Source of the DNA: an uncultured Paracraurococcus sp.
Lineage (GTDB): Bacteria > Pseudomonadota > Alphaproteobacteria > Acetobacterales > Acetobacteraceae
Assembly (NCBI GenBank): GCA_903896535.1
Contig: CAITYE010000069.1
Coordinates: forward strand, 1-40,061
Direction: 5' to 3'
Length of the DNA: 40,061 nucleotides
Part shown: piece by piece, positions 65-7,217 of the stretch
Layout: each line of letters starts with the position of its first letter
Position numbering within the stretch: position 1 is the stretch's first letter
Made by a program: the position numbers and the translations under genes
The notes under the pieces: generated by a model
Databases searched by the model: none
Told to the model about the DNA's origin: nothing
What the model saw: the letters and a program-made list of their open reading frames with translations, nothing else

Positions 65-1426
65 CTACTCCGCCGCGCGCGCCAGCGGAATCGGCAGCCC
101 GCCGGGGATGCTCTGGCCACGCCAAAGGCCGGCGAGCAGCGCATCGGCCGCCGGCCGGCCGATCACCGGGGCGACGAGTTCGACAAATTTCTCGTCGAGC
201 TCGGTATCCGAAAGTGGCGCGTCGGGGTCGCCCTTGCGGGTCGGCTGGTAGCGATAGAGCTGGCGGCCGTCAGCGAGGTCGATCCAGACCTTGGCCGCGC
301 GCTGGCCGGGATAGGCATTGGCCAGCTCCGGGTCGAGTTCGACCGAAACCTTCGACATGATCGCGCGGATGCGCGCATCGGCGAGGTTCGCCGGCTCGAA
401 GGCCGCGATCCGCACGCCGCCCAGGACCAGCAGCGCGCCCACCGTGTATTGGGTGGAAAAGCGTGCCTCCTGTTCGGTTCTCACCGCCGGGCGGTCGCAG
501 ACACTCTTGGTCGGGCCATAGCCGCCCACCTTGATGCGGCTGATTTGTTCCGGCGCGAAGCCGTGCTCACGCTGCAGGTCGCGCACTGCATCAAGCGCGG
601 CGAAGATATGGCCACAGCAGCCATGGTTCTTGAAGGTCATCTCGGTGATGCAGACCCGGCTGCCCAGATCGGCCAGGGCCTTGGCCCATTTGCCGGTATC
701 CTCGCTGGTCGCCGCCGCGAAGCCCTTTGGCCCGTGCAGCGCATCGAGCGCCCCGGTCACACCGGCCCGCGCGCCGATCGCCGCCAGCGCCCCGGCATCG
801 GCGGCATGGCCGGGATGCAGCGGCTTTGACATGGAATCGGACAGGAAGGCCTGTTGCAGCCCGCCGGCAAAGGTCGCCGCCGTGGCGATGGCATGGCCGA
901 TCTGGGTCGCATCGCAGCCCAGCGCGACGGCGGTGGAGACGGCGGCCCCGAAGGTGCCGACCGTGCCCGTGGTGTGCCAGTTGATGTAGTGGCTGGGCTG
1001 TACCGCCATGCCGATGCGGCAGGAGACTTCATAGCCCGCGACGATCGCGCGCAGCAGCTGCTCCATCGAGCCGCCCTGCTGCTGCACGGCGGCCAATGCC
1101 GGGGCGATGGTCGGGCAGCCGGGGTGGTAGCCGGCATCCCGGAAGATGTCGTCGAACTCCACCGTATGGCTCGCCGTCGCGTTCAGCAGGGCGGCATGCC
1201 GCAACGGAGAGGCTGCGCCATCGACATAGCAGATGGACCGCCCGGGGCCGCGTTCGGCCGCCAGCGCTGCTGCCAGCAGCGTGGCCGGGGGCTTGGAACA
1301 GCCGGGGATCAGGGCGGCGAACCAGTCGATCAGCGCGCGCCGGGCATGATGCGCCACCTCGGCCGGCAATGGGCCTCGGGCCCAGCCGGCGGCGTGTTCG
1401 GCGAGTGTCAGCAGCGGGTTGTCCAT
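65..1426 (-). CDS. MmgE/PrpD family protein (2-methylcitrate dehydratase / cis-aconitate decarboxylase superfamily)
   Basis: This 453-residue protein has the normal length and layout of the MmgE/PrpD family, whose members dehydrate, isomerise or decarboxylate tricarboxylic and related organic acids. Supporting stretches are the early LIDWFAALIPG segment, NATASHTVEFDDIF near residue 83, the HTTGTVGTFGAA glycine-rich segment near 150, and SKPLHPGHAADAGALAA near 200, which is the family hallmark. The CGHIFAALDAV stretch near 273 starts the C-terminal domain. It is the last gene of a minus-strand operon, starting nine bases after the dehydrogenase stop. Its neighbours (Bug receptor, hydroxyacid dehydrogenase, TPP decarboxylase) point to organic-acid catabolism, but the substrate cannot be read from the sequence. 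Family assignment is firm; activity is open. Confidence 0.9.
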   Translation of the reverse strand: MDNPLLTLAEHAAGWARGPLPAEVAHHARRALIDWFAALIPGCSKPPATLLAAALAAERGPGRSICYVDGAASPLRHAALLNATASHTVEFDDIFRDAGYHPGCPTIAPALAAVQQQGGSMEQLLRAIVAGYEVSCRIGMAVQPSHYINWHTTGTVGTFGAAVSTAVALGCDATQIGHAIATAATFAGGLQQAFLSDSMSKPLHPGHAADAGALAAIGARAGVTGALDALHGPKGFAAATSEDTGKWAKALADLGSRVCITEMTFKNHGCCGHIFAALDAVRDLQREHGFAPEQISRIKVGGYGPTKSVCDRPAVRTEQEARFSTQYTVGALLVLGGVRIAAFEPANLADARIRAIMSKVSVELDPELANAYPGQRAAKVWIDLADGRQLYRYQPTRKGDPDAPLSDTELDEKFVELVAPVIGRPAADALLAGLWRGQSIPGGLPIPLARAAE

Positions 1427-1435
1427 GGCAGCCTG

Positions 1436-2410
1436 CTACGCGTTGCCGCGCAGCACCTCCTTGTTGATGACCACATCTTCATCGAGCCGGTTGTCGAAGC
1501 AGGCGAGGATGCTGTCCGCGCAGGACAGCGCCATGCGCCGCAGGCCCTGTTCGGTCGCCGCCGCGGTATGCGGCGTGATGACGATGTTGGGCAGCTGCAG
1601 CAGCGGATTGCTCTCGACCGCGGGTTCGTCCCACAGCACGTCCACGCCAGCGCCCGACAGGTGCCCGCTGGTCAGCGCCGCGGCCAGGGCCTTTTCGTCG
1701 ACCAGCGTGCCGCGCGCGGTGTTGATCAGCACCGCGCCCTGCTTCATCGAGGCCAGGAACTCGCCATTGATGATGCCGCGGGTCTCGGCCGAGGAGGGCA
1801 GGTGGACGGTTACCACATCGGCCTCGGCGAGGCCGGCCTGCAGGTCCTTTACCGGGATGAAGCCGGCGCCCTTGATGGTGTTCTGCGGGATGTAGGGGTC
1901 GCGCACCAGCACCTTCATGTCGAAGGCCTTGCACAGCCGCGCGACCCGCCCGCCGATGCGCCCGAAGCCCATCACCAGGATGGTCCTGCCGCCCAGATCG
2001 AAGGTCGCCGGCACCGGCGGGTTGCTCCATTGCAGGGCGCGGGTCTGGCGGTCGTAGAAGAAAGTCTGCCGGGCGACGTTGAGCAGCAGCATCATCGCAT
2101 GTTCGGCGACGCAGGCAGCATTGGCATCGGGCGTGACAGTCAGCGGAATGCCGCGTTCGGTCAGCGCCGGCACATCGACCGCATCGTAGCCGACGCCGTG
2201 TCGCGCGACGATCCGCAGCTTCGGCGCATGCGCCAGGAATTCGCGGTTGATCGGCGTTGCCCGCACGATCACCGCATCAGCGTTCGGCATGGAGCGGGCG
2301 ACGGTCTCGGCATTCACCGGGTCCAGCACCTCGACCGTCACGCCGGGGACGGCGCGGAGCTGGGCGAGGGCTTCGGGGTGGACGGGACGCAGACAAACAA
2401 CGTGCGGCAT
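1436..2410 (-). CDS. D-isomer-specific 2-hydroxyacid dehydrogenase
   Basis: The 324-residue protein is a full-length NAD(P)-dependent 2-hydroxyacid dehydrogenase, interconverting a 2-hydroxyacid and a 2-oxoacid in the cytosol. The Rossmann motif MGFGRIGGRVA lies at residues 147-157, with the acidic residue D171 in the NAD-favouring position. The catalytic set is present: Arg233 in NTARG, Glu262 in DEP and His281 in TPHTAA. The substrate-side loop RHGVGYDAVDV is at 70-80. It resembles phosphoglycerate dehydrogenase-type enzymes without the C-terminal ACT domain, so a catabolic role is more likely than serine synthesis. Known (S)-sulfolactate dehydrogenases belong to the same superfamily, which is relevant because a sulfopyruvate-decarboxylase-like pair lies in the same operon. 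Substrate assignment would be inference. Confidence 0.92.
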   Translation of the reverse strand: MPHVVCLRPVHPEALAQLRAVPGVTVEVLDPVNAETVARSMPNADAVIVRATPINREFLAHAPKLRIVARHGVGYDAVDVPALTERGIPLTVTPDANAACVAEHAMMLLLNVARQTFFYDRQTRALQWSNPPVPATFDLGGRTILVMGFGRIGGRVARLCKAFDMKVLVRDPYIPQNTIKGAGFIPVKDLQAGLAEADVVTVHLPSSAETRGIINGEFLASMKQGAVLINTARGTLVDEKALAAALTSGHLSGAGVDVLWDEPAVESNPLLQLPNIVITPHTAAATEQGLRRMALSCADSILACFDNRLDEDVVINKEVLRGNA

Positions 2411-2429
2411 GGCGGTTTTCCTTACGGGA

Positions 2430-2519
2430 TCAATCGAGGCAGGTGCCAGAGACGCGGATGATTTCGGCGAAGGGCGCTGAGGCGAGACCGAAGATCGGGC
2501 GACGGGACAGGCAGACCAT
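2430..2519 (-). CDS. Candidate 29-residue small ORF inside the operon
   Basis: Between the Bug receptor stop (2530) and the dehydrogenase start (2410) an ATG at 2519 opens a 30-codon frame ending in TGA at 2430. A GGGAG ribosome-binding sequence lies about seven bases upstream of that ATG. Most third positions are G or C, as in neighbouring real genes. The peptide begins MVCLSRRPIF and contains two cysteines; I recognise no family. It may be a small protein, a translation-coupling leader for the dehydrogenase, or a chance ORF in a 119-base gap. Confidence 0.3.
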   Translation of the reverse strand: MVCLSRRPIFGLASAPFAEIIRVSGTCLD

Positions 2520-2529
2520 GGCGGGCTCC

Positions 2530-3486
2530 CTAATCGGCGGTGGCGCCGGACAGGCGCACGATCTCAACCCAGCGGGGAATATCAGCCCCGATGAAGTCGC
2601 CGAATTCGGCCGCGGCCTTCGGCAAGGGCTCATTGCCCTGCTCGATCAGCTTGGCGTGCAGCGCCGGGTCCTGCACCGCCCCCAGAATCGCCGCTGACAG
2701 GCGAGAGATGGCCCCGGGCGGCGTGCCGGCCGGCGCCATTACGCCGTTCCATAAGGCCACCTCGAAGCCGGGCAGCGTTTCGCCGATGGTCGGGATACCG
2801 GGCAGCGCGGCAGCCCGCCGCGCCGTGGTGACGGCCAGCGGGCGCAGCTGCCCGGCGGTGACGAAGGCCAGCACCTCCGGCAGGGGGGAGGCGATCATCT
2901 GGATCTTGCCGGCCAGCAGATCGGTCGCCGCCGGCGCACCGCCCTTGTAGGGCACATGCACCATCTCGATCCCCGCCCGCGCGCAGAACAACGCGCCGGC
3001 CAGATGCAGCGAGGTCCCCGACCCGGCGCTGCCATAGAAGACCTGCCCCGGCCGCGCCTTGGCATAGGCGATCAGGCCTGGCAGGTCGGTGACCGGCAGG
3101 GCCGGGTTCACCACGATGAGGTTCGGCACCAGGGAGACGAGCGCGACCGGGGCAAAATCCCGCAGCGGATCAAAGGGCAGGGATTTATAGAGCGCCTTGT
3201 TGGCGCCGATGATGCCGCTGGTCGCCATCAGCAGCGTCTGGCCATCGGGCGTCGCGCGGGCCACGCCCTCGGCGGCGATATTGCCACCCGCGCCGGGCCG
3301 GTTCTCAACCACCATCGGTTGGCCTAGTCGATCGCCGATGGTCTGCGCGACCATCCGGGCCGTGACATCCGTGCTGCCGCCGGCGGCGAAGGGCACCACC
3401 AGCCGGATCGGCTTTTCCGGCGCCCAACCCTGTGCGCGCGCCGCCGGGGCCGCGGCCAACCCGGCCAGCAGCGCGCGGCGCTTCAT
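2530..3486 (-). CDS. Bug-family periplasmic solute-binding receptor (TctC-like)
   Basis: This 318-residue protein is a tripartite-tricarboxylate-transporter-type receptor that binds organic acids in the periplasm. A short signal peptide with twin arginine-like start MKRR and an AARAQG cleavage region occupies about residues 1-19. The mature protein opens with the family signature PIRLVVPFAAGGSTDVTARM, followed by ENRPGAGGNIAAEGVA and the HVPYKGGAPAATDLLAGKIQ stretch that lines the ligand pocket. The ATG overlaps the stop of the upstream TPP-enzyme gene by four bases (3483-3486), indicating translational coupling. No membrane partners (TctA/TctB) lie in the window, so the receptor must borrow them or serve as a sensor. 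Ligand unknown. Confidence 0.93.
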   Translation of the reverse strand: MKRRALLAGLAAAPAARAQGWAPEKPIRLVVPFAAGGSTDVTARMVAQTIGDRLGQPMVVENRPGAGGNIAAEGVARATPDGQTLLMATSGIIGANKALYKSLPFDPLRDFAPVALVSLVPNLIVVNPALPVTDLPGLIAYAKARPGQVFYGSAGSGTSLHLAGALFCARAGIEMVHVPYKGGAPAATDLLAGKIQMIASPLPEVLAFVTAGQLRPLAVTTARRAAALPGIPTIGETLPGFEVALWNGVMAPAGTPPGAISRLSAAILGAVQDPALHAKLIEQGNEPLPKAAAEFGDFIGADIPRWVEIVRLSGATAD

Positions 3487-4091
3487 TGCAGATGCGCCTC
3501 CGGGCCCATGATGGCTTCACGCATGCGGGCCTGCAGGATGCTGGCCTCGCGCGGCGGCAGCACCAGCGGCTGCGGCGCCTCGTCGATCTTGATCACGGCG
3601 AATATCAGCCCCCCCGCACGGATCGCCTGGTGCAGCGCCAGCAGCTCCTCGGCGGTCCGGACCAGGCGGCTATCGGCGATCCCCGCCGCCCGCGCCATGC
3701 CGACCAGATCGACCCCGTGGCGCGTCGCTGTCTCCTGCATGCCGGTCTCGCCGTAATGCTCATTGTCCAGCACCACGATGGCGAGGTTGCCCGGCCGCTT
3801 CACCGCGATGGTGGCGAGCGAGCCGATGCCCATCAGCATCTCCCCGTCGCCGGTCACCACCAGCACCCGGCGTTCCGGCTGCGCCTGGGCGAGGCCGAGG
3901 CCCATCACCGCCGCCGCGCCCATGCCGCCCCAAAGCGGCAGGTTGAGCGGCGTATCGCCGGCCGCGGTGATGTCCCAGGCCGGCGCGCCGAGGCCGCCGA
4001 TCGCCAGCATCCCACCGCGATCCGCCAGCAGCGTCTTCACCACCTCGCGCCGCATCAACTTGCCTGTCGGTCCCGTCTGCATCGGCGTCAC
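3483..4091 (-). CDS. TPP-dependent decarboxylase, beta (TPP-binding) subunit; sulfopyruvate/phosphonopyruvate decarboxylase-like (ComE-like)
   Basis: The 202-residue protein is the small TPP-pyrophosphate-binding half of a two-subunit 2-oxoacid decarboxylase. The TPP motif is complete: GDG at residues 81-83 and the closing Asn at 110 in LDNEHYGETG. LPLWGGMGAAAVMGLGLA at 51-68 is the usual preceding helix. Family knowledge: enzymes of this size split across two genes include sulfopyruvate decarboxylase ComDE, while phosphonopyruvate decarboxylase has both halves fused. Translation most likely begins at the GTG at 4091, whose bases overlap the TGA of the alpha-subunit gene; an ATG three codons later (4082) is the alternative. 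The partner and receptor genes overlap it at either end, so the three are probably made together. Substrate is unproven. Confidence 0.88.
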   Translation of the reverse strand: MTPMQTGPTGKLMRREVVKTLLADRGGMLAIGGLGAPAWDITAAGDTPLNLPLWGGMGAAAVMGLGLAQAQPERRVLVVTGDGEMLMGIGSLATIAVKRPGNLAIVVLDNEHYGETGMQETATRHGVDLVGMARAAGIADSRLVRTAEELLALHQAIRAGGLIFAVIKIDEAPQPLVLPPREASILQARMREAIMGPEAHLQ

Positions 4092-4612
4092 TTCCCGAAG
4101 GTCTTGGCGCCGATCACGCGCTGGCTGATCAGCGTCGCGGTCGGGCGATAGGTGTTGAAGGCAAGCCGCAGCGTGGCATTCACCGTGGGCGCCACATCCT
4201 CCGGCGTTTCGGCGCGCTTCACCAGGGTGCCCATGGCTTCCAGCACGGTCTGGGTGGCATTGCCCATCGGGATCTGGAAGGGATTGAACTCCCCATAATC
4301 GCCACGCATCGTCACGATCATGGGGCAGGGCGTACGATGCGCAATCGGCACCGACAGCATATTGATGCAGTTGCCCACCCCCGAGCTCTGCATCAGCAGC
4401 ACGCCCTTCTCCCCGCCCAGCCAGCCGCCGAAGATCAGGCCGATGCCTTCCTCCTCGGTGGTCAGGGTGGTGACCTTGATGTCGTTATCGGCGAGGCAGC
4501 GCTTGATCAGCCGGGAATGACCGGCATCCGGCACCAGCGCTACCTGCCGGATACCGTGTTCCTTGAACAGGGCGTAGATCTGGTCCGGCCAATCGGCCGC
4601 GGCATCAGACAT
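4088..4612 (-). CDS. TPP-dependent decarboxylase, alpha subunit; sulfopyruvate/phosphonopyruvate decarboxylase-like (ComD-like)
   Basis: This 174-residue protein is the pyrimidine-binding half of the decarboxylase whose other half follows it. Seen in the sequence: VALVPDAGHSRLIKR at 24-38, a glutamate triplet TTEEEGIGLIFGGWLGG at 51-67 that carries the Glu expected to activate the TPP aminopyrimidine, LMQSSGVGN at 73-81, and RGDYGEFNPFQIPMG at 103-117. These match the order of conserved blocks in sulfopyruvate and phosphonopyruvate decarboxylases. I chose the ATG at 4612 because the conserved domain begins about ten residues after it. The longer open frame extending upstream is antisense to eutB. 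It is the first gene of the operon, 84 bases from the divergent eutB start. Confidence 0.88.
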   Translation of the reverse strand: MSDAAADWPDQIYALFKEHGIRQVALVPDAGHSRLIKRCLADNDIKVTTLTTEEEGIGLIFGGWLGGEKGVLLMQSSGVGNCINMLSVPIAHRTPCPMIVTMRGDYGEFNPFQIPMGNATQTVLEAMGTLVKRAETPEDVAPTVNATLRLAFNTYRPTATLISQRVIGAKTFGK

Positions 4613-4696
4613 GGGTTTCCTCGCGCGTCTTGGCTTTATCCAAGCCCCGGCACGCGGCGCTGGCAAGACCGCTTCGCGGCTTGCTAGACCCTGCGC
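4613..4696. promoter_or_regulatory. Divergent intergenic region between the decarboxylase operon and eutBC-arfB
   Basis: This 84-base spacer must contain or overlap the start signals for two operons running in opposite directions. It carries a small dyad, TTGGCTTTATCCAAG near 4629-4643. I cannot make out clear -35/-10 boxes for either direction. No regulator gene lies beside it. Confidence 0.4.
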
Positions 4697-6058
4697 ATGG
4701 CCTTCGCGCACAGCATCGGCGGCACGCTGTACCGCTTTTCGGATCTGCGCACCCTGCTGGCGCGGGCCAGCCCGCCGCGTTCGGGCGATGCGCTGGCCGG
4801 GGTCGCGGCGGCCAGCGCGGCCGAACGGGTGGCCGCCCAGCGCGCGCTGGCCGAACTGCCGCTGCGGCATTTCCTGCATGAGGCGGTGATCCCCTATGAG
4901 GCCGATGAGGTCACCCGGCTGATTCAGGACCGCCACGATGCCGCGGCCTTCGCCCCGGTCGCGCATATGACCCTGGGCGGCTTCCGCGACTGGCTGCTGG
5001 GGGCAGCCGACAGCGCCGCGCTCACCGCCCTGGCGCCTGGCCTGATGCCGGAGATGGCGGCCGGCGTCAGCAAGATCATGCGGCTGCAGGACCTGGTGGC
5101 AGTGGCCGCGAAGTGCCGGGTGGTGACGCGCTTCCGTAACACGATCGGCCTGCCGGGCACGCTTTCGATCCGGCTGCAACCGAACGATCCGGTCGATGAC
5201 CCGCGCGGCGTAGCGGCGGCCATCCTCGACGGGCTGCTGCTCGGCGCGGGGGATGCGGTGATCGGGGTCAATCCGGCAACCGACAATATCGAGACGACGC
5301 GCCGCGTGCTCGACCTGCTGGACATGGTGCGGACCCGCTTCGACATCCCGACCCAGAGCTGCGTGCTGGCGCATGTCACGACCACCCTCCGGGCCATCGA
5401 GCAGGGGGCGCCGGTCGATCTGGTGTTCCAGTCCATCGGCGGGACGGAGGGGGTGAACCGCAGCTTCGGCGTCTCGCTCACGCTGCTGGCCGAAGCCCGT
5501 GCCGCGGCGCTCTCGCTCAAGCGCGGGACGCTCGGCGACAATGTGATGTATTTCGAAACCGGTCAGGGTAGCGCCCTGTCGGCCGAGGCGCATCACGGCT
5601 GCGACCAGCAGACCATCGAGGCGCGGGCCTATGCCGTCGCGCGGGAATTCGCCCCACTGCTGGTCAACAGCGTGGTCGGCTTCATCGGCCCGGAATACCT
5701 CTTTGACGGCAAGCAGATCACCCGCGCGGGGCTGGAGGATCATTTCTGCGGCAAGCTGCTCGGCCTGCCGATGGGCGTTGATGTCTGCTACACCAACCAT
5801 GCCGAGGCGGATCAGGACGACATGGACGCGCTGCTGACGCTGCTGGGCGTCGCTGGCGTGACCTATGTGATGGGCGTGCCCGGGGCGGATGATGTGATGC
5901 TGGCCTATCAGAGCACCTCCTTCCATGACGGGCTCTATGTGCGGGCCGCGCTCGGCAAACGGCCGGCGCCAGAATTTGCCGCCTGGATGGAGCGCATGGG
6001 GCTGGACGCGGCAAGCCACGCCGGCGCCCTGCCGCTTACCCTGCCGGATTTGCGATGA
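4697..6058 (+). CDS. eutB: Ethanolamine ammonia-lyase, large (catalytic) subunit
   Basis: The 453-residue protein is the catalytic subunit of adenosylcobalamin-dependent ethanolamine ammonia-lyase, which turns ethanolamine into acetaldehyde and ammonia. Length equals the family norm. Characteristic stretches are GVNPATDNIETTRRVLDLLD in the barrel, PTQSCVLAHVTT, FQSIGGTEGVNRSFGV, YFETGQGSALSAEAHHGCDQ and VCYTNHAEADQDDMDALL, in that order. The ATG at 4697 is followed by MAFAHSIGGTLYRF, a typical EutB start. The stop overlaps the eutC start as ATGA. No microcompartment, reactivase (eutA), transporter or acetaldehyde dehydrogenase genes are present here, so this is a minimal, non-compartmented form. 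The cell must supply B12. Confidence 0.97.
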   Translation: MAFAHSIGGTLYRFSDLRTLLARASPPRSGDALAGVAAASAAERVAAQRALAELPLRHFLHEAVIPYEADEVTRLIQDRHDAAAFAPVAHMTLGGFRDWLLGAADSAALTALAPGLMPEMAAGVSKIMRLQDLVAVAAKCRVVTRFRNTIGLPGTLSIRLQPNDPVDDPRGVAAAILDGLLLGAGDAVIGVNPATDNIETTRRVLDLLDMVRTRFDIPTQSCVLAHVTTTLRAIEQGAPVDLVFQSIGGTEGVNRSFGVSLTLLAEARAAALSLKRGTLGDNVMYFETGQGSALSAEAHHGCDQQTIEARAYAVAREFAPLLVNSVVGFIGPEYLFDGKQITRAGLEDHFCGKLLGLPMGVDVCYTNHAEADQDDMDALLTLLGVAGVTYVMGVPGADDVMLAYQSTSFHDGLYVRAALGKRPAPEFAAWMERMGLDAASHAGALPLTLPDLR

Positions 6059-6798
6059 CCGCACCGGCCCGCTGGGCGACGCTCCGCCGCTTCACCACCG
6101 CCCGCGTCGCGCTTGGCCGGGCCGGCCATGCGCTGCCGACCGCCGCGCATCTGGACTTCCAGGAAGCCCATGCGCTGGCGCGCGATGCGGTGCATGCCGC
6201 GCTCGACCCCGCACCGGTCGCGGCCGCCGCGGCGGCGCTTGACCTGGCGGTGGTCGCGGTGGCGAGCGAGGCGCCGGACCGGCGAGCCTATCTGCTGCGC
6301 CCCGATCTCGGCCGCCGGCTGCGGGCGGCGGATGCCCAGCGCCTGCCGGCGGCGCCCGGCGCCTTCGTCTTCGTCGTGGCCGATGGCCTTTGTGCGACCG
6401 GCGTTAGTGACCATGCCCCGGCGCTGCTGCGGGCCGCCGTGCCGCTGCTGCGGGCGGCGGGGATGAGCGTCGGTCCGGTGGTGATCGCCAGCCAGGCACG
6501 CGTTGCGCTGGGCGATGCGATCGGGGAGGCGATGGGCGCGGGCATGCTGGCGATGCTGATCGGGGAGCGGCCCGGGCTGACCGCCCTCGACAGTCTCGGC
6601 GTCTATCTGACCGCCGCGCCCCGGCGCGGACGGACGGATGCCGAGCGCAACTGCATCTCGAATATCCGCCCGGCGGGTCTACAGCCGGCGGCGGCGGCGG
6701 TGAAGCTCGCCTGGCTGGCCGGCGCGGCGCGGCGGCTGGGGGAGACCGGGGTTCGGCTGAAGGATGAGCAGCCGGCCACGGCCCTGCCCGCGCCATGA
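6055..6798 (+). CDS. eutC: Ethanolamine ammonia-lyase, small subunit
   Basis: This 247-residue protein is the small subunit that completes the cobalamin-binding site of ethanolamine ammonia-lyase. Supporting blocks are SEAPDRRAYLLRPDLGRRL, VADGLCATGVSDHAPALL, RVALGDAIGEAMGAGMLAML followed by IGERPGL, and RNCISNIRPAGL near the C terminus. These contain the residues that contact the cofactor tail in known EutC proteins. The gene starts inside the eutB stop (ATGA at 6055-6058) and its own stop overlaps the arfB start the same way at 6795-6798, so the three genes are translationally coupled. Length is normal for the family. Confidence 0.96.
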   Translation: MTAPARWATLRRFTTARVALGRAGHALPTAAHLDFQEAHALARDAVHAALDPAPVAAAAAALDLAVVAVASEAPDRRAYLLRPDLGRRLRAADAQRLPAAPGAFVFVVADGLCATGVSDHAPALLRAAVPLLRAAGMSVGPVVIASQARVALGDAIGEAMGAGMLAMLIGERPGLTALDSLGVYLTAAPRRGRTDAERNCISNIRPAGLQPAAAAVKLAWLAGAARRLGETGVRLKDEQPATALPAP

Positions 6799-7217
6799 TC
6801 CGCGTCACGGCCCGCATCTCCCTCAATGAGGATGAGCTGCACGAGGATTTCCTCCGCGCATCCGGCCCCGGCGGGCAGAACGTGAACAAGGTAGAAACGG
6901 CGGTCCAGCTGCGCTTCGATGTTGCCCGCAGCCCGAGCCTGCCCGAGCCGGTGCGGGCACGGCTGCTGGCGATGGGCGGCCACCGGCTGACCCAGGACGG
7001 CGTGCTGGTGATCACAGCCCAGCGCTTCCGTCAGCGTGAGCGCAACCGCACCGATGCGCTGGCGCGGTTGGTGGCGCTGATCGTCGAGGCGGCGAAGCCG
7101 CCGCCGCCGCCGCGCCGCGCGACCAAGCCGACGCTCGGCTCCAAGCAGCGGCGGTTGGAGGGCAAGGCGAAGCGCGGCGACGTGAAGCGCGGGCGCGGCC
7201 GGCCCGCGTCGGATTAG
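6795..7217 (+). CDS. arfB: Peptidyl-tRNA hydrolase ArfB (YaeJ-type ribosome rescue factor)
   Basis: The 140-residue protein resembles a stand-alone release-factor catalytic domain. The GGQ motif lies at residues 26-28 in SGPGGQNVNKVETAVQLRF, and the C-terminal tail from about residue 100 is strongly basic (KQRRLEGKAKRGDVKRGRGR), as in ArfB, where it enters the empty mRNA channel of stalled ribosomes. ArfB hydrolyses peptidyl-tRNA on non-stop complexes without needing a stop codon. The start overlaps the eutC stop, an unusual functional partner. The TAG stop at 7215-7217 is formed by the first bases of a dispersed repeat element, so insertion of that element may have set the present C terminus. 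Confidence 0.93.
   Translation: MIRVTARISLNEDELHEDFLRASGPGGQNVNKVETAVQLRFDVARSPSLPEPVRARLLAMGGHRLTQDGVLVITAQRFRQRERNRTDALARLVALIVEAAKPPPPPRRATKPTLGSKQRRLEGKAKRGDVKRGRGRPASD

Follow-up and report, generated by a model that had tools for sequence, protein, structure and literature searches.

A conserved ComDE-like decarboxylase operon of Acetobacteraceae with a possible role in branched 2-hydroxy-dicarboxylate catabolism

The window analyzed here, 40,061 nt from an uncultured Paracraurococcus sp. (contig CAITYE010000069.1), opens with a minus-strand operon (65-4612) whose five genes are all intact. They encode the ComD-like alpha and ComE-like beta subunits of a split thiamine pyrophosphate (TPP) decarboxylase, a Bug/TctC receptor, a D-2-hydroxyacid dehydrogenase (DH) and an MmgE/PrpD protein. 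The operon is conserved among relatives and is not one for sulfolactate catabolism. Our preferred reading, held tentatively and a little short of an even chance, is that its products may take part in the catabolism of a 2-hydroxy-dicarboxylic acid, and that this acid is probably a 2-hydroxyglutarate carrying a branch or other substituent. An organic acid would be captured by the Bug receptor, which would work with a TctAB permease from another locus, and the DH would oxidize the 2-hydroxy-dicarboxylate to an acid of the 2-oxoglutarate type. Carbon 1 would then be released as CO2 by the split TPP enzyme, leaving a succinate-semialdehyde-type aldehyde, which an aldehyde dehydrogenase, encoded elsewhere in this genome and within the cluster in other genera, would convert to a substituted succinate. 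MmgE/PrpD would interconvert the stereoisomers of this succinate by a two-base His/Tyr mechanism, making the epimerized acid accessible to a stereospecific CoA-activating enzyme. We infer the substrate class and the order and direction of these steps from gene content, conservation, clade membership, active-site residues and gene linkages.

Conservation of the five-gene operon

Gene families were assigned by Pfam and NCBIfam profile searches. As had been predicted, the five genes lie on one strand, and each of the first two junctions is a four-base overlap: the alpha and beta genes share 4088-4091, given a GTG start of beta at 4091 (the alternative is an internal ATG), and the beta and Bug genes share 3483-3486. 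Gaps of 119 bp and 9 bp separate Bug from DH and DH from MmgE/PrpD, respectively. Sequence downstream of MmgE/PrpD is not visible because the window opens at the first base of the contig.

To assess conservation, we surveyed 299 genomes of the order, defining a ComD ortholog by at least 64% identity. Such an ortholog is present in 71 genomes; 62 of these also have a DH ortholog (adjacent in 60) and 66 an MmgE ortholog (adjacent in 53), and all three genes stand together in 53 genomes representing many genera. Among the 228 genomes that lack this ComD, the MmgE ortholog occurs in 20 and the DH ortholog in 8. Fisher tests of co-occurrence, which ignore relatedness, gave p values of 8e-42 and 5e-45. 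The arrangement is thus found far beyond chance, and the outcome named beforehand as refuting the original prediction, that the five genes would not be conserved together elsewhere, did not occur. The gene for the periplasmic solute-binding Bug receptor (P0003, 2530-3486; PF03401, 228 bits, and gene order in relatives) is an optional member, being absent from about half of the named relatives' loci, and at this locus TctC stands without TctA, which is found solely elsewhere in the genome, in two copies. Among 80 named loci, the ComD-ComE-DH-MmgE set is restricted to Acetobacteraceae/Roseomonadaceae and unclassified relatives. In the open-access literature we found no description of ComDE combined with MmgE, of ComDE alongside ethanolamine ammonia-lyase, or of ComDE together with TctC and a hydroxyacid dehydrogenase.

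The DH itself (P0004, 1436-2410; NAD-type, PF02826/PF00389) is nearest to the phosphoglycerate dehydrogenase subfamily (TIGR01327, 272 bits against a cut-off of 454), with 1wwk as its best sequence match in the PDB; its Arg/Glu/His triad was read from sequence only. This kinship with phosphoglycerate/hydroxypyruvate-type enzymes, together with seven genomes in which ComDE and DH occur without MmgE nearby, would suit a decarboxylase whose substrate is a 2-oxoacid with a single carboxylate, for instance hydroxypyruvate or a branched acid, with MmgE serving a separate function and merely carried along. We consider this rather improbable, given the frequency of the MmgE ortholog among ComD genomes (66/71) and the repeated linkage of several MmgE subfamilies to the decarboxylase clade described below.

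A decarboxylase outside the Xsc-linked clade

The alpha subunit (P0001, 174 aa, 4088-4612) carries E53 and E55, which are also conserved in sulfopyruvate decarboxylases, and the beta subunit (P0002, 3483-4091; PF02775 over cut-off) has a GDG...DN TPP-binding motif, with GDG at residues 69-71 (G69-D70-G71, counted from the called start MRREVV) followed by D97-N98. Two small adjacent subunits, one with the Glu and the other with GDG...N, place the enzyme among the heteromeric TPP decarboxylases of the ComDE/RhiEF superfamily. The split of motifs between subunits is as originally described and is conserved across the decarboxylase groups that we compared. The predicted structure of the ComD-like subunit was poor (predicted local distance difference test, pLDDT, 62) and was not used.

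Although the window's enzyme shares this architecture with the ComDE of sulfolactate and 2,3-dihydroxypropane-1-sulfonate degradation, the two are distinct. Neither subunit reaches the ComDE equivalog cut-off (alpha, TIGR03845, 115.1 against 147.95 bits; beta, TIGR03846, 119 against 221.5 bits), and the ComD subunits are only about 28-32% identical. In a screen of 385 genomes of the class, ComD exceeded its cut-off in 10, and all 10 also had Xsc over cut-off; an eleventh Xsc-bearing genome has a ComD just under the cut-off that belongs to the same clade as the Xsc-linked set. In contrast, Xsc was over cut-off in none of the 21 genomes with an ortholog of the window's ComD (its own genome and 20 others). 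A tree of the concatenated alpha and beta subunits splits the window's group from all Xsc-linked ComDE with an SH-like approximate likelihood ratio (SH-aLRT) support of 98, and an alpha motif conserved as C-K-Q (C-K-Q-L) in the Xsc-linked proteins reads D-A-G (D-A-G-H) in the window. The MmgE/PrpD gene of the window's operon is a further difference. In one of the Xsc-linked loci (L200) a D-2-hydroxyacid dehydrogenase gene directly precedes ComDE, as a resemblance to the window, and another (L207) has an HpsN-like protein of the hisD family and a flavin mononucleotide (FMN)-dependent 2-hydroxyacid dehydrogenase; both layouts correspond to the known sulfonate route and are consistent with published descriptions (PMC11382572).

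These comparisons bear on whether the operon could serve ordinary sulfolactate or phosphonate catabolism, with a sulfopyruvate or phosphonopyruvate decarboxylase here and the downstream enzymes elsewhere. Sulfolactate degradation also employs a TctC receptor and a D-2-hydroxyacid dehydrogenase, and the enzyme belongs to the same superfamily. Its nearest solved relative for both subunits is the heteromeric phosphonopyruvate decarboxylase RhiEF (PDB 9iz3/9iz4; PMC12141560; alpha nearest to 9iz3_A), and a phosphonatase gene over cut-off is present in the window's genome. However, similarity to RhiEF is weak (E about 1e-10 to 1e-11), the phosphonopyruvate decarboxylase profile is not reached (TIGR03297, 56.6 and 92.9 against 312.5 bits), the operon has no phosphonate genes, and the phosphonatase is both unlinked and patchy, exceeding its cut-off in just 6 of 14 operon-bearing genomes. 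A phosphonate route was rejected on this last ground, and the sulfolactate route was rejected by the cut-offs, the position in the tree and the lack of Xsc; taken together, we regard this explanation as very improbable. The original prediction had proposed a path related to yet distinct from sulfolactate degradation, without Xsc, and had named as its refutation a decarboxylase falling inside ComDE with xsc in the genome; the data support the former and the latter did not occur. Members of the clade are annotated as sulfopyruvate or phosphonopyruvate decarboxylase, as TPP-binding protein or even as aldehyde dehydrogenase, and may be counted wrongly when sulfonate and phosphonate cycling is surveyed.

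A further comparison is with LumK/LumL of riboflavin catabolism, in which two small TPP-binding subunits of 20 and 23 kDa form a 1:1 heteromeric enzyme that decarboxylates a quinoxaline carboxylic acid (PMC12746152); this likeness is one of subunit make-up, and the pathway and gene neighbors are different. By analogy, the window's enzyme could decarboxylate or carboligate an aromatic or heterocyclic acid as part of a broader aromatic pathway, and carboxymuconolactone decarboxylase-family genes do adjoin some relatives. Yet no ring-cleavage or ring-hydroxylating genes are found in the operon or conserved alongside it, and MmgE and a hydroxyacid dehydrogenase suit aliphatic acids, making such a role improbable.

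Linkage of the decarboxylase clade to methylsuccinate genes

The most informative contexts of the same decarboxylase clade in other bacteria were annotated plasmid records (14 loci). In Mesorhizobium ciceri, genes for MmgE, a CoA ester lyase, MaoC, a CaiB CoA-transferase and an acyl-CoA dehydrogenase are followed by ComD, ComE and an aldehyde dehydrogenase; the cluster of Mesorhizobium sp. AR02 is identical in content, and variants occur in Sinorhizobium sp. RAC02, Haematobacter, Bosea sp. F3-2, Sphingobium, Variovorax and two Deinococcus. Apart from ComDE and the aldehyde dehydrogenase, these genes match the Ict-Ich-Ccl-Mcd-Msi itaconate/methylsuccinate cluster (PMC12290011), for which we took as reference a P. 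aeruginosa record whose genes match it; the published cluster itself has no ComDE-like enzyme. An aldehyde dehydrogenase is annotated within 7-8 kb of the decarboxylase in 12 of the 14 plasmid loci and also accompanies it on Burkholderiales chromosomes. At chromosomal loci, tblastn placed beside the decarboxylase an Mcd-type acyl-CoA dehydrogenase with 63-74% identity to the Mesorhizobium copy, to which the P. aeruginosa Mcd is 65% identical. Mcd-type and Ict-type CoA-transferase genes adjoin the clade in Acetobacteraceae, Burkholderiales, Rhizobiales, Rhodobacterales and Deinococcus, and several of these loci also have MaoC, CitE and MmgE.

We compared signature positions between 20 decarboxylases of the window's group (group A) and 25 linked to Mcd or its cluster. 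The two sets show a fixed difference at a single alpha position (T129 to V) and nowhere in beta, and 21 positions are fixed in common to both sets and different in the Xsc-linked ComDE. It is possible, although we hold it with less assurance than the role proposed for the operon, that the clade, a large and so far unrecognized one, consists of branched 2-oxoglutarate decarboxylases which, with an aldehyde dehydrogenase, would form an undescribed upper pathway from branched C6 hydroxy-, oxo- or amino-dicarboxylates to methylsuccinate-type acids, the window holding its Acetobacteraceae version. If true, this would supply the decarboxylase step for branched dicarboxylates, tie to the methylsuccinate pathway an orphan enzyme clade found in Alphaproteobacteria, Betaproteobacteria and Deinococcus, and provide a biological source of methylsuccinate inside soil bacteria; the environmental source of that pathway's substrate was described as unclear until recently (PMC12290011).

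The MmgE/PrpD protein of the window (P0005, 65-1426), a predicted dicarboxylate epimerase, matches PF03972 and PF19305 and retains all seven residues that coordinate a 1,4-dicarboxylate or take part in catalysis (H87, E90, H101, Y147, H151, K201 and K266), conserved in nearly all of 35 ortholog sequences. Their counterparts in methylsuccinate isomerase are His88, Glu91, His102, Tyr148, His152, Lys202 and Lys266, the Tyr being the second base of its epimerase mechanism, and the characterized MmgE/PrpD enzymes all act on a 1,4-dicarboxylate (PMC12290011). The predicted model (pLDDT 82) is nearest to iminodisuccinate epimerase (2hp0; template-modeling score 0.81). That enzyme (PDB 2hp0/2hp3), the closest solved structure by both sequence and fold, has the same seven residues except D for E90, but it is only 28% identical to P0005 and its substrate is an aspartate-derived iminodiacid. 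The protein does not score as a 2-methylcitrate dehydratase PrpD, the sole such match being to NF042438 at 32.6 against 950 bits. Among the plasmid clusters, the MmgE of Mesorhizobium and Variovorax shares 61-62% identity and a clade (100/100) with the P. aeruginosa methylsuccinate-cluster protein; those of Bosea/Sphingobium, Shinella/Bosea 117, Deinococcus and the window's group are of other subfamilies. Since several separate MmgE subfamilies are linked to the decarboxylase clade, the two appear to have become paired on several occasions, suggesting that MmgE and the decarboxylase were repeatedly coupled in function.

Oxidation followed by decarboxylation, as in the original prediction, is further supported by relatives outside the window's group, which have other 2-hydroxyacid-oxidizing enzymes (for example FMN-dependent ones) near the decarboxylase as stand-ins for the DH, and by the aldehyde dehydrogenase that often follows the decarboxylase. 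The conversion of a 2-hydroxyacid via the 2-oxoacid to an aldehyde is thus likely, but the earlier proposal that MmgE acts first, on the imported acid, is less well supported: in relatives MmgE belongs with the methylsuccinate route, which would come after the decarboxylase and aldehyde dehydrogenase, and therefore MmgE is more likely to be an epimerase on the product side. The earlier order of steps would be kept if MmgE epimerized malate or a substituted malate, a D-specific DH then gave an oxaloacetate-type acid, and the ComDE-like enzyme a malonate-semialdehyde-type aldehyde. Among carboxylates, oxaloacetate is the direct analogue of sulfopyruvate and phosphonopyruvate, an epimerase of 1,4-dicarboxylates ahead of a D-specific dehydrogenase is sensible, and near the decarboxylase there are a Shinella gene annotated as oxaloacetate decarboxylase/aldolase and aconitase genes in Bosea and Shinella. 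Nonetheless, the MmgE/PrpD family is not known to act on malate, and no methylmalonate-semialdehyde dehydrogenase (MmsA, TIGR01722) was found at E <= 1e-100 in 16 genomes including that of the window, on which ground a malonate-semialdehyde route via MmsA was rejected. We therefore consider oxaloacetate-type chemistry unlikely and prefer a 2-oxoglutarate-type substrate, because it better explains the aldehyde dehydrogenase and the methylsuccinate genes linked to the clade.

Several observations weigh against the route proposed for the operon. P0005 lies outside the methylsuccinate isomerase (Msi) clade, in a different MmgE subfamily with 32% identity to the P. aeruginosa protein. That subfamily occurs in Pseudoroseomonas, Martelella, Agrobacterium and Sinorhizobium meliloti beside an enoyl-CoA hydratase and an NDP-forming CoA ligase, and loci of P0005 relatives hold varying mixes of these two genes with Bug and D-2-hydroxyacid dehydrogenase genes. 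Because of the different subfamily and neighbors, the substrate of P0005 may not be methylsuccinate; the neighbors fit a CoA-dependent dicarboxylate route, not specifically methylsuccinate. Furthermore, neither an aldehyde dehydrogenase nor a CoA-transferase or Mcd is encoded in the window (the whole Ict-Ich-Ccl-Mcd set is absent from it), with the end of the contig hiding the region past MmgE. The window's genome has no clear ortholog of itaconyl-CoA hydratase; the best match is 36% identical (L295) and stands beside a CaiB match of 36%, and because of this low identity the lower pathway in Acetobacteraceae may differ. Finally, gene linkage among relatives is partly inherited and not independent.

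Other loci of the decarboxylase clade show further neighbors. A second Acetobacteraceae group (L072-L080, L195), with 50-58% ComD identity, is often followed by a resistance-nodulation-division efflux pair, and genes for an Mcd-type acyl-CoA dehydrogenase and a CoA-transferase often face it. Bosea sp. 117 (L181, 2498-14639) has the tricarballylate dehydrogenase TcuA, over cut-off, with the decarboxylase, and both this locus and that of Shinella (L265, 643-15101) have aconitase, an MmgE of another subfamily and a Bug receptor nearby. In Burkholderiales and one Roseomonas (L145, L148, L151, L172), close ComDE relatives precede a gene of the carboxymuconolactone decarboxylase family and, usually, a gene like those of 3-hydroxyisobutyrate and tartronate-semialdehyde reductases. 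Five plasmid clusters (L258, L259, L263, L270, L271) pair the decarboxylase with genes for PxpA (5-oxoprolinase), urea-amidolyase-family proteins, aminotransferase or biotin carboxylase; we speculate that the outer substrate in such clusters could be a substituted glutamate or pyroglutamate, which would suit the PxpA and aminotransferase neighbors.

Flanking eut genes and a distant ComDE-like pair

Upstream of the operon, on the opposite strand, lie eutB, eutC and an ArfB-like release-factor gene (4697-7217), which are kept next to the operon at roughly half of the related loci. EutB (4697-6058, plus strand; PF06751 and PRK15067 over cut-off) and EutC (6055-6798, plus strand; PF05985 and PRK05465 over cut-off) are the large and small subunits of ethanolamine ammonia-lyase. 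The 84-bp intergenic region that separates them from the operon (4613-4696) is likely, from the gene coordinates, to hold both divergent promoters. The eutBC genes diverge from the operon in 28 of 52 group A loci, and ethanolamine ammonia-lyase has no obvious pathway link to it. Some genomes that keep the operon have lost eutBC; a link to ethanolamine was therefore rejected, the pair is read as an inherited neighborhood, and EutB probably has no part in the pathway. A gene for a short-chain dehydrogenase (about 250 aa) occurs on the operon's strand in 15 of 52 related loci, either immediately upstream of ComD or beyond eutBC (for example L128, 7127-7879; also L118, L120, L133 and others). The window's genome also has a second, distant ComDE-like pair (L085, 2921-4060), 29% identical in ComD, whose flanking genes encode two Bug receptors and a VOC-family protein.

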